42,933 bases of DNA from IMG/VR virus record IMGVR_UViG_3300029258_000930, positions 1 through 42,933 of that record, one strand, 5' to 3'. The translations under genes were made by a program, and so were the position numbers. The notes under the pieces were generated by a model, which was not told the origin of the DNA, did not search any database, and saw only the letters and a program-made list of their open reading frames with translations. Positions 3,725 through 19,235 of this stretch are shown here, in pieces (the stretch's first letter is position 1; the number at the start of each line of letters is the position of its first letter). This DNA comes from a virus.

Positions 3725-5074
3725 TTATATCACCATTACCCTTGGAATATACAACCCAGAGGGGGCATCGTATGAGTATGCTCCTGTTGGGACTGTTATT
3801 GTACCTAAATTACTACCAGTATTATCCATCCAATCACCACTAGGGTCAGATGCCGCTACTGTAACATTAAATATGTTATCATTCTGTATTCTAATTTCAT
3901 CCATATATCCATTCAAATATAAGGATGGAGTAAAATAAGCCCCTAAATATAAAGAGCCTGCGTAAGTATCTGAACTTCCATCGCTAAGATAACTTACCTG
4001 AGAACCATCTTTATATATTGCATAAGCACTGCCTACCTTGATTAAAGCAATATGATGCCAATCAGTGTCAGTTATTTCTCCTCCAAAAGGTGTTTGTACA
4101 GTAACAGAGCCAGTAGTTAACGCTGTAAACCGTAGCCCGCTGCCATGAACATGAAACAATTGCCAGCGATTACTTGCGTCCTCTACTTGGCAAATATAAA
4201 ATTCTGTACCTGCATGGTCTGTATGTTTTACCCAAAAAAACTGCAATGAGCCTGTACCCCATTTCTTAACGTCTGTATCAATCTGAGCTGTCCCTACGAA
4301 TGTTGGTATGTGATAAGTACCACTCCCACCGTCTCCCGAGACATCATGAGTATCCATGTGAAGAAGAAGCTTAGTGTTAGCGTCTGAGGTATGAGCTGAA
4401 GTTGGAACTGTTATTGTATCATCTGGAGTGCTATTAGGGTTTGCGCTATAAACATTACTTTCCTGAATTCTAAACTCATCTATATATCCATTAAAGTAAC
4501 TTGAAGGAGTGCTACTTGAACCTATATATAAAACAGCAGTAATATCAGCAACATCTGTTGAATCGCTAACATAAGCATACTGCACTCCGTCTACATATAA
4601 ACCAGATACACTTCCTACCTTTATAAACGCATAATGGTGCCATTGAGTAAAATCAAAATTTTGGTCTCCCGTATCTAAGTTATAAACATTTCCACTTTGA
4701 TAACCTTGAAAAGCTACTTTTTGAGTACCACTCGAATCATAAAGGTACCAAGTCATATGAGTCCTACTACCATCTGACCTCTCTGCTAAGTAACCTAATC
4801 CTGTTCCGTTCCACTTAGCCCAACACTCCATAGTTACATTGGTTTTAGCTGTATCTAGTATGTTAAAATCTGTAGATGTTGGAATAGTCAAATAATCTCC
4901 ATCACCATCAAGCGTAAGACCAGTTGACCCCCATTTTTTAGCAGCAGTTGAAAGAGCCGCATCATTAACTTGAGTAACTATATGCCCAGTAGCACCACTA
5001 TCAATGATTTCTTTACCACCATCTTGCCCATCTGCGTGTATTAATAGTTTAGTATTTGCGTCAAGTCCACTCAT
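3725..5074 (-). CDS. Tail protein with two LamG (concanavalin-like) domains
   Basis: A 449-residue protein made of two repeats, each beginning DANTKLLIHADG or DANTKLLLHMDT. The first repeat (about 5-220) shows the full LamG_3 pattern: KKWGSTGLTLDGDGDYLTIP, then MECWAKWNG, WHHYAFIKVG and YIDEFRIQ. The second (about 230-400) keeps KKWGTGSLQF, WHHIALIKVG and MDEIRIQ, but the stretch between SLQF and FWVKH is missing, as if some 25-30 residues had been lost in frame. LamG domains bind glycans and often sit in phage receptor-binding proteins and polysaccharide-binding tailspikes, so surface-sugar recognition is the likely job. The C terminus (GLYIPRVMVI) is a short tail of unknown role. Confidence 0.85.
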   Translation of the reverse strand: MSGLDANTKLLIHADGQDGGKEIIDSGATGHIVTQVNDAALSTAAKKWGSTGLTLDGDGDYLTIPTSTDFNILDTAKTNVTMECWAKWNGTGLGYLAERSDGSRTHMTWYLYDSSGTQKVAFQGYQSGNVYNLDTGDQNFDFTQWHHYAFIKVGSVSGLYVDGVQYAYVSDSTDVADITAVLYIGSSSTPSSYFNGYIDEFRIQESNVYSANPNSTPDDTITVPTSAHTSDANTKLLLHMDTHDVSGDGGSGTYHIPTFVGTAQIDTDVKKWGTGSLQFFWVKHTDHAGTEFYICQVEDASNRWQLFHVHGSGLRFTALTTGSVTVQTPFGGEITDTDWHHIALIKVGSAYAIYKDGSQVSYLSDGSSDTYAGSLYLGAYFTPSLYLNGYMDEIRIQNDNIFNVTVAASDPSGDWMDNTGSNLGTITVPTGAYSYDAPSGLYIPRVMVI

Positions 5075-5429: not shown

Positions 5430-6554
5430 CTATGCTGTTTCTGTTATTTCTATTCTGACTGTTAGCCCTTTTGCTGCAGTCGTGTGAATTGAATCTATAT
5501 CTATTGTAAAGATATCTCCGGCAGTTACAGACGTTGTTGTCAGCGTCGGAGCAGTTGCTGCCGTCCTAGAAGATTTCTCTGTTGTATCAATAGATATTTT
5601 GTTGGTCGTCATTATTGTTGTCCCAGCGATATTAACATCTACAACCATAGTCCCTGTAATTCCAGCAGTATCTACAAAAGCACCAATAGCCGAAATTGTT
5701 CCAGTAAAAGGAGCTTCAATATCTCCACCGACGCCCGTATCTACCGCGCAATCTGTTGTTGATTCTAGCAACCTAATGTAAATATACTTCTTAACACCAA
5801 CGCTAGTTGCTGCAGCCTCCGCTGCTGTTTGAGCCGCTTCTGCCGCAGTTTGAGCCGCTTCTGCCGCAGTTTGTGCCGCTTCTGCCGCAGTTTGTGCCGT
5901 CTCGGCATTTGTTTCAGCCGTCTCGGCATTTGTTTCAGCCGTCTCGGCATTTGTTTGCGCTGTTTCCGCTGCAGTTTGTGCTGTCTCAGCTAACCCTTGC
6001 GCTGTTTCCGCTGCAGTTTGTGCTACCTCTGCCGCTGTTTGTGCCGCCTCAGCGTCAGAGACAATGTCGTTAAAATCAGAAGAAGAGTTCTCCAGATCGT
6101 CTCCGGCGATATTCCATAGAAGAGCTTTACCTGCATCTGGTGTCGGTAATGATATCCCCGTTATCTCAGAAGTGATAGGTATCTTCAGGCTCCTATCTGT
6201 AATTTCTTTTAGTTGTTGTACCTGTATAGCTAGCAGATCCAGACCCTTCTCTATAACAGACTCAGAGAAGCCGCCGCCTTTAGGTATATCAGATTCTTGA
6301 GAATAATCAGCGTTCCCAACCATAAGAATCTCATTCGTATCATCTGGTGCGGCTAAGAAACTGACTGTCCCCGTCTCATTATCAGTGTCAAAAGATACTG
6401 TGTAATCTGTCGTAATAGTTTGCAAAACACCATCGTCATAGACCGCAATTTCCTCCTCGGAAAAGATTTTGAAATCAAAATCAAAGTCCGTCAATACCCC
6501 GTTTGCAGTCAAAGTAACTCGACGAGGTTTAATGTCTACGCTTTGTACTGTCAT
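5430..6554 (-). CDS. Tail fibre with T7 gp17-like N-terminal domain
   Basis: A 374-residue protein in the gene-17 position, right after the gp16-like gene. Residues 1-85 (RRVTLTANGVLTDFDFDFKI, DYTVSFDT, VSFLAAPDD) match the pattern of the phage T7 tail fibre N-terminal domain that docks on the tail. A helix (about 95-122) follows. Residues 168-251 hold twelve Ala-rich heptads of the AEAAQTA type, a classic trimeric coiled-coil shaft. The C-terminal 120 residues are Thr/Ile-rich beta strands ending VRIEITETA and probably form a small tip domain. At 374 residues it is shorter than T7 gp17 (553), so the separate LamG and DDDH-motif proteins downstream may supply further adhesin parts. AAGGAG precedes the ATG. 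Confidence 0.85.
   Translation of the reverse strand: MTVQSVDIKPRRVTLTANGVLTDFDFDFKIFSEEEIAVYDDGVLQTITTDYTVSFDTDNETGTVSFLAAPDDTNEILMVGNADYSQESDIPKGGGFSESVIEKGLDLLAIQVQQLKEITDRSLKIPITSEITGISLPTPDAGKALLWNIAGDDLENSSSDFNDIVSDAEAAQTAAEVAQTAAETAQGLAETAQTAAETAQTNAETAETNAETAETNAETAQTAAEAAQTAAEAAQTAAEAAQTAAEAAATSVGVKKYIYIRLLESTTDCAVDTGVGGDIEAPFTGTISAIGAFVDTAGITGTMVVDVNIAGTTIMTTNKISIDTTEKSSRTAATAPTLTTTSVTAGDIFTIDIDSIHTTAAKGLTVRIEITETA
5802..6053 (-). repeat. 21-bp tandem repeats coding fibre heptads
   Basis: Twelve 21-base units, each coding one heptad (AEAAQTA, AETAETN and close variants). The four units nearest the C terminus are the most alike. The repeat also creates spurious open frames on both strands here. 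Copy number could change by slippage in register, so fibre length can vary without frameshift. Confidence 0.85.
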
Positions 6555-13216: not shown

Positions 13217-13660
13217 TTACCCTCCTGAAATTATTGAATATAAATAATAGTCGTTTCCTTGGATATCAAAATGCCTTATAAGACCTTCCCGCTCGAAGCC
13301 AAACATCTCTAAAAAACGATAATACTTCTCATCGTCCACTCTGCACTTCGCCTGTATCCTATGCTGAAACATTAGTCCATTTTTTAGCTGTTCCTTTATA
13401 TACCGACAAATCTCAATAGTGTGATAAACCCACCCTTTTGCCGGTAGGATAAATACTTCTCCTACTCCAACGCCTACTGATACAAGACCTAACACCATCA
13501 AAACCGTTCCTTCCTCATTACAAAGAGTATGAACATGAGGCTGACCGGCCAAACGAAAGAAAAAGCTTTCCGGCATTGTCTGGATTGACCCCGCAAACAA
13601 AAAATGTTCTACTTCCATATCTAGATAATGTTTTGCTTCAAAGTTTAAGGCTCGTATCAT
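13217..13660 (-). CDS. gp13-like protein with GNAT acetyltransferase-type fold
   Basis: A 147-residue protein at the place of T7 gene 13 (138 residues). The pattern is that of a GNAT fold: VLMVLGLVSVGVGVGEVFIL as central strands, a helix (TIEICRYIKEQLKN) and the typical C-terminal 'KYYRFLEMFGFEREGLIRHF' end. Family knowledge: T7-like gp13 proteins are internal virion proteins distantly related to GNAT enzymes. The canonical acetyl-CoA loop (Q/R-x-x-G-x-G/A) is not clear here, so catalysis is doubtful. The start overlaps the gp12-like stop as ATGA, with AGGAG upstream. A role in head-core assembly or ejection is inferred. Confidence 0.7.
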   Translation of the reverse strand: MIRALNFEAKHYLDMEVEHFLFAGSIQTMPESFFFRLAGQPHVHTLCNEEGTVLMVLGLVSVGVGVGEVFILPAKGWVYHTIEICRYIKEQLKNGLMFQHRIQAKCRVDDEKYYRFLEMFGFEREGLIRHFDIQGNDYYLYSIISGG

Positions 13661-15978
13661 TCTTCTCCTATCTCAAGATCAAGTACAACGCCATTAACTT
13701 TAGCAGGCATTGCTATGTCTTGAACAATGACGATATATTTCGTCTCGTCCCACTTATCTTCCATAGCAACTTCTTCGTACCCGCTATTGGGTAAGGACGG
13801 TCTATCTGTTAATTGTCCCATAGTCGCTGTATCTATTTGGCTAAGGTCGTAAAGACTTGACCCATACTTCGTGTAAAAAGATTGGTGAAACAATAAGTTA
13901 ATTCGAGAGATGTTTTGTTTTCTCCCACCGGTAGTTGCAGCTTGGCCAGCCAAATTTAACGGCAATGATATGTATACCCCTTTATATTTATAACCAAAAC
14001 AAATAACCGCAGCTTGTCGATTTAAAGTTATTATACCCCCAGTTACCTTAACATCTGGGTGAACTCTCCCATCAGCCAATACCTGAATATCTTCACCCTC
14101 TAAGTGATGTAGGCCCCCTACGGTATCTGTAGTCAAAAACCAACTTCCAGCGGGGATTGCATCTGTATTATCGAAGTCCTCGAGAACATCACAGACAACT
14201 ACCGTCGAGGAAGTGTACTGGGTAATAACGGCTCTACCTCCACCCGCCCTATCTTCATATTTTTTCCATATCTCACTACCTACATCCGTGGACAGAAAGA
14301 CACCTGAAGAAGCAGTAAAAGTTATGTCATCTCCCGTAGTTGCGCCGGGAGTCATAGTGATACTACCCCCTGCTAGGTCAGACCCGTTACTTGTTAGGTG
14401 ACTATCTAAATAAGTAAATTCCCTTTGCTGTTCGAAAACCTCATTTCTAAAATCTGTTTGATCTGTTTCCTCGCTATCTTCATCAGTAAAATAGTCTTCA
14501 ATGACCAAAGACTCCCACGGGTCAGTAAAGTACTCCATGTACCGAACTGTCGTTCCGTTAATTTCTCTCTCGACAACTACCCAGACTCGGTCATACCCAG
14601 AAACTAATGATTCAGTTGTCACACTCCTAATTTTAGCACTCGGCCCACCTGGTTTTACGCGCATCCACCCGGAGGGGTCTTCCTTATCTTTAACAACAGC
14701 CGCGATAAGTGCACCCGCCCCCGTAACCGCGTAAATAATATCGTCTTTTCCACGCTGAAAAGCTAACTGAACTACTCCACTCCTTGTTAAATGAGAAGCT
14801 AAAAACTGCCTATCATTTGAACGATAAGAGTCAGCCATTAGCTCATACTGAAAAGATCTAATTTTTCTAGATCCTTTCTGCATATAAAATAACGTCGATC
14901 CATTCGCTACCGGTTGTAAATATTGACCACCATAAGGGTCTATTGGACGAACTCTTACTGTTGTTGGGGTGATGGCTTCATTAGTTCCACCCCCATCCAT
15001 AGCACTGATTCCACCTGTTGTTCCTATAGCTAAGAAAAGTTCAGTACCCGCAATCCAGTTTATGTACGCGATATCTCCATGACCTGAAGATATAGGAAAG
15101 ATCAAAGCGTCATCTGCTACCGCGCTACCGAGAGTAAAATCATCATATCTGGAAGCTCCTGCGGAATCCGGCCCGCGAGAGGCATAAATAGTATCTGGAT
15201 TAGTAGTAGTTCCAGCCATAACTAAACGACCTTCATAAAAGGCAACAGCTCTAGGATACAATCCTACGCCAGTAAAAGGATCAGTAGTTCGGGAGTACGT
15301 AGCAAAAGTCCAACTGGTCGCGCTTACGCGGGTTAATTTATACGGGGCAAAATCATTATGCACAAAGTACCCAATATTTCCTTGACCCGCCCAATGAAAT
15401 TCAAATAACTCGTCGGCGGTATAAGGGGAAACTATAGTATAAACTGCTTTAACAGTTCCACCAGAAGAGTAAGCCGTGTAAGCAGAGCCGTCAACGGCGT
15501 TCCCGAATAAGTCAACCAATTCAAAAGTGTTAGCGTCCGAGTTCGTGATAGTAAAAAATCGGGCGTTGATCTCTGTCATTCCAACAACTCCCGAGATGTA
15601 AACTTCATCACCGTCCGAGAACCCATGAGCTACCGCCGTTATAACGACCGGATCAGCACTCGTCGCGCCGGTGATACTCGTACCCGTGGCTGCGAGCGTT
15701 ATAGAGCTATCCTCGACAATTCTCAAAAAACCAGGAGTAAAAGATAATATATACGTCTCGTCATCAGAGAAACGAAAGGTCTCAAGCCTACAATTCGCTT
15801 GGGATTCTGACGGATGAACATATTTAAGTCCACCTCTGTACTCCAAAGAACCTTGAGCGTGTGGAATAAAATTCTGGCATCTCTTCGCACTTGCTGGATA
15901 AACTTCTGAATCGCTTCTTCCGTAAATATCTGAAGAAACTTCTCCTCCTGCAAAATTATTTATAGTCTGTTCAGGCAT
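13657..15978 (-). CDS. Tail tubular protein B / nozzle (gp12-like)
   Basis: A 773-residue protein, close to T7 gp12 (794). The N terminus carries the family signature: NNFAGGEVSSDIYGRSD, then AKRCQNFIPHAQGSLEYRGG and FRFSDDETYILSFTPGFLRI. A 'VVITAVAHGFSDGDEVYISG' segment near residue 110, followed by EINARFFTI and ANTFEL, is an inserted beta module seen in many phage tail proteins. The protein is beta-propeller-like in family structures and forms the tail nozzle through which DNA passes. It follows gp11-like directly; no clear ribosome site is visible before its ATG, so it is probably translated by coupling from the gene 3 bases upstream. Confidence 0.9.
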   Translation of the reverse strand: MPEQTINNFAGGEVSSDIYGRSDSEVYPASAKRCQNFIPHAQGSLEYRGGLKYVHPSESQANCRLETFRFSDDETYILSFTPGFLRIVEDSSITLAATGTSITGATSADPVVITAVAHGFSDGDEVYISGVVGMTEINARFFTITNSDANTFELVDLFGNAVDGSAYTAYSSGGTVKAVYTIVSPYTADELFEFHWAGQGNIGYFVHNDFAPYKLTRVSATSWTFATYSRTTDPFTGVGLYPRAVAFYEGRLVMAGTTTNPDTIYASRGPDSAGASRYDDFTLGSAVADDALIFPISSGHGDIAYINWIAGTELFLAIGTTGGISAMDGGGTNEAITPTTVRVRPIDPYGGQYLQPVANGSTLFYMQKGSRKIRSFQYELMADSYRSNDRQFLASHLTRSGVVQLAFQRGKDDIIYAVTGAGALIAAVVKDKEDPSGWMRVKPGGPSAKIRSVTTESLVSGYDRVWVVVEREINGTTVRYMEYFTDPWESLVIEDYFTDEDSEETDQTDFRNEVFEQQREFTYLDSHLTSNGSDLAGGSITMTPGATTGDDITFTASSGVFLSTDVGSEIWKKYEDRAGGGRAVITQYTSSTVVVCDVLEDFDNTDAIPAGSWFLTTDTVGGLHHLEGEDIQVLADGRVHPDVKVTGGIITLNRQAAVICFGYKYKGVYISLPLNLAGQAATTGGRKQNISRINLLFHQSFYTKYGSSLYDLSQIDTATMGQLTDRPSLPNSGYEEVAMEDKWDETKYIVIVQDIAMPAKVNGVVLDLEIGEE

Positions 15979-16648: not shown

Positions 16649-16688
16649 AAAGAAAAGGGCGCACGCAAGCATAACTTACGTGCGCCCC
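16649..16688 (-). terminator. Rho-independent terminator after the capsid genes
   Basis: On the minus strand a perfect 9-bp stem GGGCGCACG / CGTGCGCCC (16687-16679 and 16665-16657) with a 13-base loop is followed by TTTTCTTT. It stands between the head accessory gene and the gp11-like gene, the same place as the late terminator of T7 behind gene 10. It would cut down transcription into the tail genes and so raise the capsid to tail ratio. Confidence 0.85.
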
Positions 16689-16720
16689 TGTGAATCGCAC
16701 CTCAATTTTTTAATTACAGT

Positions 16721-17224
16721 TTATCGACCAACTGTGGTTAATGAAACAGTAATAGTTCCCGCAGCAGTTACCTCAGAATTTAGAGTAATTGCTACCCAAT
16801 AAGAATCATTAGGTAATACCCCAATCACATCTCCTGTAGCAACATCATTAGCGATTTCGAAGAACTTCAAAACACCTCTTTCTTCAACCCCTAATGCTGC
16901 CAAGATATCCAACTTTGAAGCGAACGCAATACCTGCTGACGGATCAAGCCCGTCTGCTAAAGCATCTTTGTCAACAACAACTTGGTTGTCTCTGTAAAGA
17001 CCTACATCTAAATCAGAAGCGCCTGCGATTGCGTCTGATATCAGCCAACCTTCAACTGGAATCTCGTGAGCGCCTACTCTAAAAAGAGCTTTTATGTCGC
17101 CCGCGGCATCCGCTGCTGCAGTTTCAAACGTGATAACGCGTCTTGTAGTTTTTACACCACTAGATTTTAGCGCGTCAGTTGCTTCGCCCGCCAATACTTT
17201 TGCATCTACGATATCAAAAGACAT
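16721..17224 (-). CDS. Putative head accessory (decoration-type) protein
   Basis: A 167-residue acidic, Ala/Val/Thr-rich protein immediately after the major capsid gene. It has few aromatic residues and many predicted beta strands (KKTTRR-type loop near 25, VGAHEIPVEGWLISDAIAGA in the middle, SYWVAITLNSEVTAAGTITV at the end). I do not recognise a named family. Placement between the capsid gene and a terminator, a strong AGGAGG site and beta-rich composition suit a decoration or head-stabilising protein made in high amount. This is an inference; a neck protein is the alternative. Confidence 0.55.
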   Translation of the reverse strand: MSFDIVDAKVLAGEATDALKSSGVKTTRRVITFETAAADAAGDIKALFRVGAHEIPVEGWLISDAIAGASDLDVGLYRDNQVVVDKDALADGLDPSAGIAFASKLDILAALGVEERGVLKFFEIANDVATGDVIGVLPNDSYWVAITLNSEVTAAGTITVSLTTVGR

Positions 17225-17256: not shown

Positions 17257-18141
17257 TTAATCAGTTGTCTGAACCTTTTGTACAAGAACACCTTCAGTTC
17301 TAACTGCACCAAGAGTCCAGTTAACCTGAACTTGGTTTGTCTGTACTAAGTCAGTACGTTCTTGAACTTTGATCTCGAATTGTTTTGGCATCGCGTAGCA
17401 AAGAGCCCTAGAACTCATTGCGATACAATCACGAGTACCCCCAGAAACACTAAGAACAGGATTTGTTGCATTCGCAGCGAACTTAATCAAGCGAACTCCA
17501 ACAGCTTCCTGGATTTGTCCTTTTTCAACAGCGAACTGACGAGTATAGTCGCCTGATACAAGCTCAACTTCACCCATTAATGCTGTATGCTCATCACCTG
17601 AAATGCACATTACAAAATCTTCCATCATGTCGTTTCCAACATCATTGTCGATAAAGTTCTGTACGATCTCTAACAACTTTTCATACGTCAAACCTGCTGT
17701 TGCATTAACCGTCAAACCACCATCAGACGCGAACGTAACAGTTGTATCAAAGTCTTCTCCTGTAATAACAGAAGCCAAAGCCGCTTCAGTACCGATTCTA
17801 TCATGCACTCTAGCCATAGCCATTGCACATGCTTTCTGGTATTCACGTTCTGGGTTTAATAATACTTTGGAAATATCATCTTCGTCGATAGGAAGAGTCA
17901 AAGAGAAACGTCTTCGACCAATTTTTCTACGAGTGATCTTTAAATCAGAAAAGTTTACCGTATTGAAACGGCCAGATAATTCTTGTGCTTCGATAGAACC
18001 TACTCCATCATAAGCATAAGCTTTACCCTTCATTTGCTTAACAGGGAAAATTCCCGCTAGACGGGCTTTCATCTGTTGGGCTTCCTGGTGGACGCCATCA
18101 GAAAACTGGATTACTTGTCCTGTTTCGATTTGAGCTGCCAT
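17257..18141 (-). CDS. Major capsid protein
   Basis: A 294-residue protein. It begins with a helical arm (FSDGVHQEAQQMKARLAGIF), followed by basic loops (KITRRKIGRRRFSLTLPIDE), a long helix with HDRIGTEAALASVITGEDFD, and a C-terminal beta region (FEIKVQERTDLVQTNQVQVN, then WTLGAVRTEGVLVQKV). This is the layout of HK97-fold coat proteins of podoviruses with short coats. It follows the scaffold gene and has a private sigma70-like promoter and a structured leader, as expected for the most abundant virion protein. GGGAGG stands 6 bases before the ATG. Length is below T7 gp10A (345), so it is a different coat subfamily. Confidence 0.88.
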   Translation of the reverse strand: MAAQIETGQVIQFSDGVHQEAQQMKARLAGIFPVKQMKGKAYAYDGVGSIEAQELSGRFNTVNFSDLKITRRKIGRRRFSLTLPIDEDDISKVLLNPEREYQKACAMAMARVHDRIGTEAALASVITGEDFDTTVTFASDGGLTVNATAGLTYEKLLEIVQNFIDNDVGNDMMEDFVMCISGDEHTALMGEVELVSGDYTRQFAVEKGQIQEAVGVRLIKFAANATNPVLSVSGGTRDCIAMSSRALCYAMPKQFEIKVQERTDLVQTNQVQVNWTLGAVRTEGVLVQKVQTTD

Positions 18142-18182
18142 ATCAGCCTCCCTTTAATAAAAGTTTAACACAAGAGTTATTT

Positions 18183-18258
18183 ACGCTCCCCGGGATTTCC
18201 GGACGTGTTGCCTTTATTAAGGGCGGCTTCACCCTACGGACGTGGTTAACGCTCCCCG
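18183..18258 (-). ncRNA. Structured leader RNA of the capsid mRNA
   Basis: Between a promoter and the capsid gene the minus strand carries four short blocks in order A-B-B-A: CGGGGAGCGT (18258-18249), CACGTCCG (18244-18237), CACGTCCG (18207-18200) and CGGGGAGCGT (18192-18183). A and B can pair with each other (GGA-bulged G-CG with CGTCC). Either A can pair with its neighbouring B, or the first A with the second B, giving alternative folds. Inside are a GGGTG-AAGC-CGCCC hairpin and a CCGG-AAATC-CCGG hairpin. I do not recognise a known riboswitch class. The region is GC-rich compared with its flanks. Confidence 0.5.
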
Positions 18259-18271
18259 CTTATCTAGTAAT

Positions 18272-18301
18272 AATCTACCACAGTATAATTGTATTTGTCA
18301 A
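18272..18301 (-). promoter_or_regulatory. Sigma70-like promoter for the capsid gene
   Basis: On the minus strand a perfect TTGACA (18301-18296) is followed, 17-18 bases on, by GTAGAT/TAGATT (about 18278-18272), a 4/6 match to the -10 consensus. It lies between the scaffold stop and the capsid leader. An A/T-only inverted repeat (AAAAAAG-ATAA-CTTTTTT, 18303-18320) sits just upstream and might act as a weak terminator of scaffold transcripts. Confidence 0.55.
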
Positions 18302-18326
18302 GAAAAAAGATAACTTTTTTAAATAA

Positions 18327-19235
18327 CTATGACATTTTACCTATTCGTGCATAAAGTTCGTTAACACGTGCAACTGTCGCATCATGTTTAGGATGACGAA
18401 AATCCTTGTACGAGGGGTCTGCCATAAGTTGTTGAGCTTCAGCTCTTGCCGCATTAGCGTCGCCTTCTGATCCTTTCCCCCCGAAATTTAGGTTATCCTC
18501 ACTCATATATTTATCGTGAAAAGAATTAAGTATGCTTGCCATAATAGTTAAATTATCATTTGACAAAGATTGCAGATGTGGCTGAAGTTCTTTAGGTGTA
18601 TGCTCTTTTAACAAGGCGTTTGCTATTTTTAACTTCTCGTCCTTCTTGTCTCCAAAAAGGCCATCTGCTAATTTCTCAAAGTCCGCGGATTGCTTAGCTG
18701 CTTCGTCCGCGGTTCCTTTTGCTTTTTCTAATAATATACCGTCATATCCTTGTGTAAGGATATCAATTTGACTTTGGTGTAACCCAGCTTTATGGAAAAG
18801 ACCTTTCATCGTATTACCAAACTCCTCATCCCTGCCGAATTTCTTTACATATTCGGTTTCTGGGAGATTATAGGCATCCGCCTTTTCTGGTCTTACCTTA
18901 GAAAAATACGCGTCCCATACCTCGGGAGCGGCGTCCGGCGCTGGTATTACTGCTTGCTTTTGCCCAATCAAAGACTGAGCGTTGTCAAAATCTTTGAACA
19001 TTTTATCAAAAGAATTGACTTCCTTCATATAAGGCTTCTGCTGAAACTCAACCGGCACGAGTTTATGAAAATCAAACTCAGGGGTTTGAGGCTCAGCTGA
19101 TTTTGACGCAGGGTCTTGCGGCATATTCGGGGTAGCTACTGCTACCGTGCCTGGCGCCGCCGACTTTACTGCTTCTGGTTTTACCTCTGGTTTTACCTCT
19201 GGTGTTACCTCTGGTGTTGCTTCTGGTTCTGGCAT
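18327..19235 (-). CDS. Scaffolding protein
   Basis: A 302-residue acidic, helical protein directly before the capsid gene. It starts with a Pro/Glu/Val-rich disordered leader (PEATPEVTPEVKPEVKPEAV), then a region with FDFHKLVPVEFQQKPYMKEV, long Lys/Glu helices, and a C-terminal helix AQQLMADPSYKDFRHPKHDA ending VNELYARIGKMS. The 'DPSYKDFRHPKHDATVARVN' end is typical of podovirus scaffold proteins (T7 gp9 is 307 residues). It should guide capsid assembly and leave the head before DNA packaging. CAGGAG precedes the ATG. Confidence 0.85.
   Translation of the reverse strand: MPEPEATPEVTPEVKPEVKPEAVKSAAPGTVAVATPNMPQDPASKSAEPQTPEFDFHKLVPVEFQQKPYMKEVNSFDKMFKDFDNAQSLIGQKQAVIPAPDAAPEVWDAYFSKVRPEKADAYNLPETEYVKKFGRDEEFGNTMKGLFHKAGLHQSQIDILTQGYDGILLEKAKGTADEAAKQSADFEKLADGLFGDKKDEKLKIANALLKEHTPKELQPHLQSLSNDNLTIMASILNSFHDKYMSEDNLNFGGKGSEGDANAARAEAQQLMADPSYKDFRHPKHDATVARVNELYARIGKMS

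Follow-up and report, generated by a model that had tools for sequence, protein, structure and literature searches.

What is the repeated, GC-rich block directly upstream of the major capsid protein (MCP) gene of this virus, and does it act as an RNA? The DNA analysed, referred to here as the window, is a 42,933-base IMG/VR virus record, and the leader is read on its minus strand. Two copies of one sequence, A (CGGGGAGCGT, minus strand, 18249-18258 and 18183-18192), enclose two copies of another, B (CACGTCCG, minus strand, 18237-18244 and 18200-18207), as the original prediction had it; the GC content of 0.56 for 18170-18259, against 0.23-0.44 in the adjoining bins, agrees with its description of a GC-rich block in AT-rich surroundings. 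The folding energy is unremarkable (z of -1.67 for 134 nt, and about 0 for the core). Because fold energy alone is unimpressive, comparison with relatives is the test, and on that comparative evidence the A-B-B-A block proves to be a structured RNA, conserved among relatives, at the predicted 5' end of the MCP mRNA. Our main reading, to which we assign a probability of about one half, is that this leader carries partner-binding modules together with, in the window's lineage, a pseudoknot/anti-SD switch, and that it would tune capsid output.

The capsid transcription unit

A scaffold-like gene (18327-19235; PF05396) is followed, after a gap of 185 nt, by the MCP gene on the minus strand (17257..18141; PF19821 Phage_capsid_2, phrog_3437). 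Just upstream of the block we found a sigma-70-like promoter, TTGACA-18-TAGATT (18301-18272, minus strand), in keeping with the private promoter that had been claimed. A TTGACA..TATAAT layout recurs 5' of the first leader hairpin (H1) in most leaders of the window's family and in Vibrio phages; the distance from the end of the -10 element to H1 is 13 nt in the window and 3-13 nt in most relatives with a recognisable promoter. The same unit contains, after the MCP gene, an open reading frame of 167 aa (16721..17224, minus strand, from the ORF list), for which a Pfam search gave no match and which, going by its position, we would guess to encode a decoration or other head protein.

The unit is closed by a strong terminator-like hairpin, AGGGGCGCACGUAAG..CUUGCGUGCGCCCUU (16655..16689, minus strand), and a similar one stands about 1.3-1.5 kb past the MCP start in most of the relatives checked. 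With the promoter upstream and this hairpin downstream, the unit thus runs from promoter through structured leader, MCP and ORF to terminator, inside the late operon. In T7, the capsid unit phi10-gene 10-Tphi also has its own promoter before the capsid gene and a terminator after it; unlike that unit, the one described here has a host-type promoter and a structured, conserved leader. The window encodes DNA polymerase A, a helicase and an exonuclease, and no RNA polymerase gene was seen among the main ORFs scanned, so that transcription by the host polymerase is expected. We also noted that the sequence of the terminator hairpin, roughly GCGCACGTRAG..CTTGCGTGCGC, is kept beyond what a terminator alone requires, and that it recurs about 1.44-1.48 kb past the MCP start in L003, L008, L017, L018, L021, L023 and L024. 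Elsewhere on the minus strand, a 773-aa protein of the virion region (13657-15978) has a Pfam match to an E1 FCCH domain, and a 449-aa ORF (3725-5074) matches a laminin G-like lectin fold.

Hairpins and a probable pseudoknot in the window's family

The original prediction held that each A could pair with either B, giving mutually exclusive folds. This swapping had to be given up: the A1-B2/B1-A2 pairing shows no covariation (2 cells, with 180 of 500 shuffles as high), and the copies in relatives diverge as A1/B1 and A2/B2, as in L024, where GCAC/GTGT stands beside GCGT/ACGT. The pairings A1-B1 and B2-A2 do covary, 8 pairs having changed on both sides, a number reached in none of 500 shuffles. 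A structure composed of A1/B1, a pseudoknot and B2/A2 has 98.1% of its cells paired across 21 distinct sequences; double-sided changes affect 8 of its pairs and 25 cells (2.9 and 5.3 in shuffles, none of 500 being as high), counts that are biased towards the structure since the alignment was fitted to a model holding most of it. Control structures with slid partners were only 28-51% paired, and the raw leaders show the same pairs without guidance from the model. The claim that the capsid leader holds a structured, cis-acting RNA is therefore upheld, as comparison of related capsid leaders reveals compensatory changes and finds the element in the same place. Among relatives in viral_contigs (capsid 76-100% identical), the element lies in the same gap whenever the contig includes that gap.

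Hairpin H1 (A1/B1; 18237..18258, minus strand) reads CGG-G[GAG]CGU uaacc ACG-U-CCG, with a wobble G·U beside a 3-nt bulge on the 5' strand. Its inner three pairs, each with double-sided changes, are 100% paired in 21 sequences, and different phages show this inner helix as CGU/ACG, CGC/GCG, CGA/UCG, CAC/GUG, CAU/GUG, UCC/GGA, UAU/AUA and UGC/GCA. Energy calculations prefer an alternative register of H1 (GGA/UCC with a bulged G), which is contradicted by the GUAG variants. Hairpin H2 (B2/A2; 18183..18206, minus strand), ACG-U-CCGG aaauc CCGG-G[GAG]CGU, carries the same module with the bulge on the 3' strand, and double-sided changes affect two basal pairs and one apical pair. From the end of H2 to the ATG there are 41 nt in the window and mostly 35-60 nt in relatives. 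In several clade-3 leaders, L021, L071 and L023 among them, an extra hairpin, for example ACTTTAAAATTTTAAAGT, lies between H2 and the start codon.

The two further inner hairpins of the original prediction, between H1 and H2, are better read as one H-type pseudoknot (18207..18236, minus strand) with an A-rich loop. Its stem S1, AGGG/CCCU (18232-18235 with 18220-18223), has a third pair that is UA, CG or UG in relatives. Stem S2, GCC/GGC (18225-18227 with 18210-18212), never varies in relatives and so draws no support from covariation; the sequences are compatible with S2 and do not prove it.

Rfam 15 gave no match in the window, none at E<=10 for 18130-18330 and none in 20 relatives, consistent with the earlier view that the block belongs to no known riboswitch or leader class. 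A covariance model built on the window's clade also recovers capsid leaders from phages further removed (E values of 1e-11, 1e-5 and 6e-3) and detects one strong copy in each virus record, with no extra copies above background in the same phage genomes. In a strict pair scan, the paired element at the MCP leader was prominent in the window and MW202485; other paired matches in whole genomes were at chance level, and no pair was found at the MCP of HTVC010P or ZP6. Our first pattern scan gave unrelated matches too. In cellular genomes, 33 pattern matches were obtained in genome_contigs; the three that were inspected lacked the full element and the 21 scored with the model were mostly partial or weak and chance-like, and we accordingly rejected presence in cellular genomes. 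A possible tRNA fragment before the leader of L092 was not called as a gene by ARAGORN.

A wobble-plus-bulge module in distant capsid leaders

We examined 51 MCP leaders, with capsid identity down to about 25%. The leaders of far relatives look unrelated in sequence and their helices vary; one loop module recurs, usually twice per leader, in which a 3-nt bulge with A in the middle adjoins a wobble pair that is either G·U or A·C. A targeted scan found 83 such modules in the 51 leaders versus 8.7 in shuffles, and at least two in 33 of the 51, where shuffles lead one to expect 0.4. In an unbiased scan of internal loops in the same leaders, loops of 4x1 were also in excess (77 versus 18-19 in shuffles), and loops of 2, 3, 5 or 6 versus 1 nt were near background.

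The loops found were GGAG/U (22), GUAG/U (10), AUAC/C (8), ACAA/C (7) and AUAA/C (6), together with GCAA/U and GGAA/U (2 each) and single cases. The first base of the recurrent loops is G opposite U in 36 cases (GGAG, GUAG, GCAA, GGAA) and A opposite C in 23 (AUAC, ACAA, AUAA and two singletons), and the third base is A. As G·U and A·C wobbles share a shape, the rule for the loop is wobble-pair covariation next to a 3-nt bulge, a clean example of this kind of covariation in a recurrent RNA module. We rejected a CsrA-type GGA site because the bases vary (GUAG, AUAA, ACAA, AUAC). The two modules of a leader share their fourth base in 41 of 45 cases (19 expected), as if a single partner reads both. 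In most leaders the bulge is on the 5' strand of hairpin 1 and the 3' strand of hairpin 2.

The Vibrio phages K300, phiVC8 and VP2 were fetched after the rule had been fixed, and all three have GUAG/U in H1 and GUAG/U in H2, following a TTGAC..TATAAT promoter. HTVC010P has one clear module and a tentative second (AGAA/C, with an imperfect outer helix); ZP6 has two, both of the H1 kind. At the thresholds used, one module or none was seen in L075, L091, L095, L097, L104, L106, L149 and others. Two modules of the H2 kind, of the very regular form NNG-C-CC(tetraloop)GG-AYAA-CNN, occur in L107, L109, L079, L112, L120 and L129.

Ribosome-site pairing and candidate functions

How could such a leader affect capsid expression? 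In most of the window's relatives, the pseudoknot strand AGCC..CCU has an alternative pairing partner in the ribosome site AGGAGGCU, which predicted folds of the whole leader bury against this strand. In the window, duplex energies and tail shuffles point to an anti-SD strand, AGCC.CCCUUAAUAAAGG (18211..18228, minus strand, overlapping the pseudoknot), with the SD region CUUUUAUUAAAGGGAGGCU (18145..18163, minus strand) as its partner; their duplex has -21.4 kcal/mol, equalled or beaten by tail shuffles in 0.7% of trials. Cognate anti-SD/SD duplexes average -13.3 kcal/mol versus -11.07 (sd 0.44) when permuted, with none of 5000 permutations as low, although permutation figures here overstate certainty, as the related sequences are not independent. 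By clade, the cognate test gives P=0.018 for clade 1 and P=0.15, not significant, for clade 3; clade 2 gives none. When only the tails outside the AGCC..CC core are shuffled, the native sequence is better (p<=0.033) in 12 of 16 clade 1 and 3 sequences. The two strands change together, as in L003 (AAUAUUGG/CCAAUAUU, compared with AAUAAAGG/CUUUUAUU in the window), L062 (CCUAAUG/CAUUAGG) and L012 (CCCUAAAA/UUUUAGGG).

Support for this SD-sequestering alternative comes from clades 1 and 3 and does not extend to clade 2 or beyond the family; SD pairing is absent in L013, L017 and L018, and leaders outside the clade show it no more often than background (3 of 23). Being lineage-specific, SD pairing cannot be the universal function, and to judge from the sequences the leader resembles a conserved sensor coupled to expression platforms that vary. 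The idea of a switch near the ribosome site stays plausible, but with the pseudoknot opposed to the anti-SD:SD helix instead of alternating A and B strands.

Sequence comparison demonstrates both hairpins, the rule that the modules obey, the element's place ahead of MCP and, for the window's lineage, that anti-SD and SD coevolve; we infer the S2 stem, where the transcript starts, what binds the leader, which state is on and which off, and the effect on capsid level. The leader RNA would be the 5' end of an mRNA for MCP and the next ORF. H1 and H2, stacked base-to-base, would present their modules as tandem sites along one helix, most likely a binding platform for a protein, either a phage virion or assembly protein or a host factor. 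In the window's lineage, when the pseudoknot forms, the anti-SD strand would be hidden and the ribosome site free, with translation on; when released, this strand would pair with the ribosome site and translation would be off. Which state prevails would be decided by partner binding or by the order of co-transcriptional folding, and capsid output would be tuned in this way. H2 lies too far from the AUG to favour simple occlusion by a protein bound there. SAM-II, preQ1 and T4 gene 32 are pseudoknot leaders or riboswitches that act on the SD, and the leader resembles them in having a pseudoknot that competes with or adjoins ribosome-site pairing; unlike theirs, its pseudoknot would free the SD rather than bury it, and it matches no Rfam family.

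A leader of this build might instead stabilise the mRNA, H1, placed at the transcript start or within a few nt of it, and the compact fold blocking 5'-end-dependent decay and the terminator guarding the 3' end of a long-lived capsid message. The short distance from -10 element to H1 where a promoter is recognisable, the discrete unit from promoter to terminator and the large amounts of capsid required all fit this, which we nevertheless consider rather unlikely: a stem alone would suffice, leaving the recurrent G·U/A·C module, usually present twice, superfluous, and in L105, L127, L137 and L155 no promoter is evident and H1 comes after the stop codon of the scaffold gene. Unlikely, too, is an autogenous operator, with MCP or the scaffolding protein attaching to the tandem modules to repress its own translation whenever assembly falls behind. 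Such an operator would explain why the element occurs only upstream of MCP in a single strong copy per record, is deeply conserved alongside the capsid gene and has matching modules within a leader. How closely the capsids are related, however, does not predict the type of module (AUAC/C in L028, with 55% identity, but GUAG/U in ZP6, with 26%, as in some close relatives), and in most leaders 35-60 nt separate the site from the AUG. The coat operators of the RNA phages MS2, Qbeta and PP7 are small bulged hairpins tied to the capsid gene, and the leader likewise has bulged hairpins before a capsid gene as a candidate protein site; unlike them, it has two permuted copies, belongs to a dsDNA phage and lies well upstream of the AUG, so that neither the ribosome site nor the start codon is covered by a hairpin of the coat-operator kind (41 nt separate the end of H2 from the ATG).

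Antitermination by an RNA that binds the host polymerase as it leaves the promoter was suggested by HK022 put, a polymerase-binding antiterminator RNA of about 70 nt with two bulged stem-loops near the start of a sigma-70 transcript (PMC9378689). The leader resembles it in being a compact RNA of about 70-90 nt that has two bulged stem-loops and directly follows a sigma-70 promoter, and no RNA polymerase gene was among the ORFs scanned. We hold this to be improbable, however, because the strong terminator-like hairpin is kept about 1.4 kb downstream in the same unit, where all transcripts crossing it would carry the leader, and because HK022 gave no match with model R1 or the paired-module scan; the leader further differs in being one site per genome, before MCP, and in its pseudoknot and anti-SD strand. 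That the block consists of chance repeats without function would suit the unexceptional fold energy, and is hardly credible given the covariation, the conservation and the out-of-sample confirmation.

Returning to the partner-binding leader, we tentatively extend it to an undescribed class of capsid-leader RNA in HTVC010P-type pelagiphages, Vibrio and Alteromonas podophages and many freshwater phages, in which tandem modules would be bound by one co-evolving protein and the platforms would be lineage-specific. Structured leaders and protein-binding mRNA elements in general are already known; this module, the tandem permuted order in which it occurs and its range across the capsid family appear undescribed in the sources searched, as we found no description of the element in the open-licence literature. 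Phages of this capsid family, among them HTVC010P-type pelagiphages, which are widely held to be among the ocean's most abundant viruses, depend on the host's polymerase. If the proposal is true, these dsDNA phages would have a switch that senses a protein and sets capsid dosage. The leader is present in cultured phages of Alteromonas and Vibrio and offers a concrete handle on capsid dosage, and the two modules and the anti-SD strand yield testable predictions. In Skadi, no terminators or ribonucleotide switches are reported (PMC10504331). In the phiVC8 record (5460-5601; L200), the depositors annotated a putative terminator and a promoter within the stretch upstream of MCP where the leader lies; the leader itself carries no annotation.
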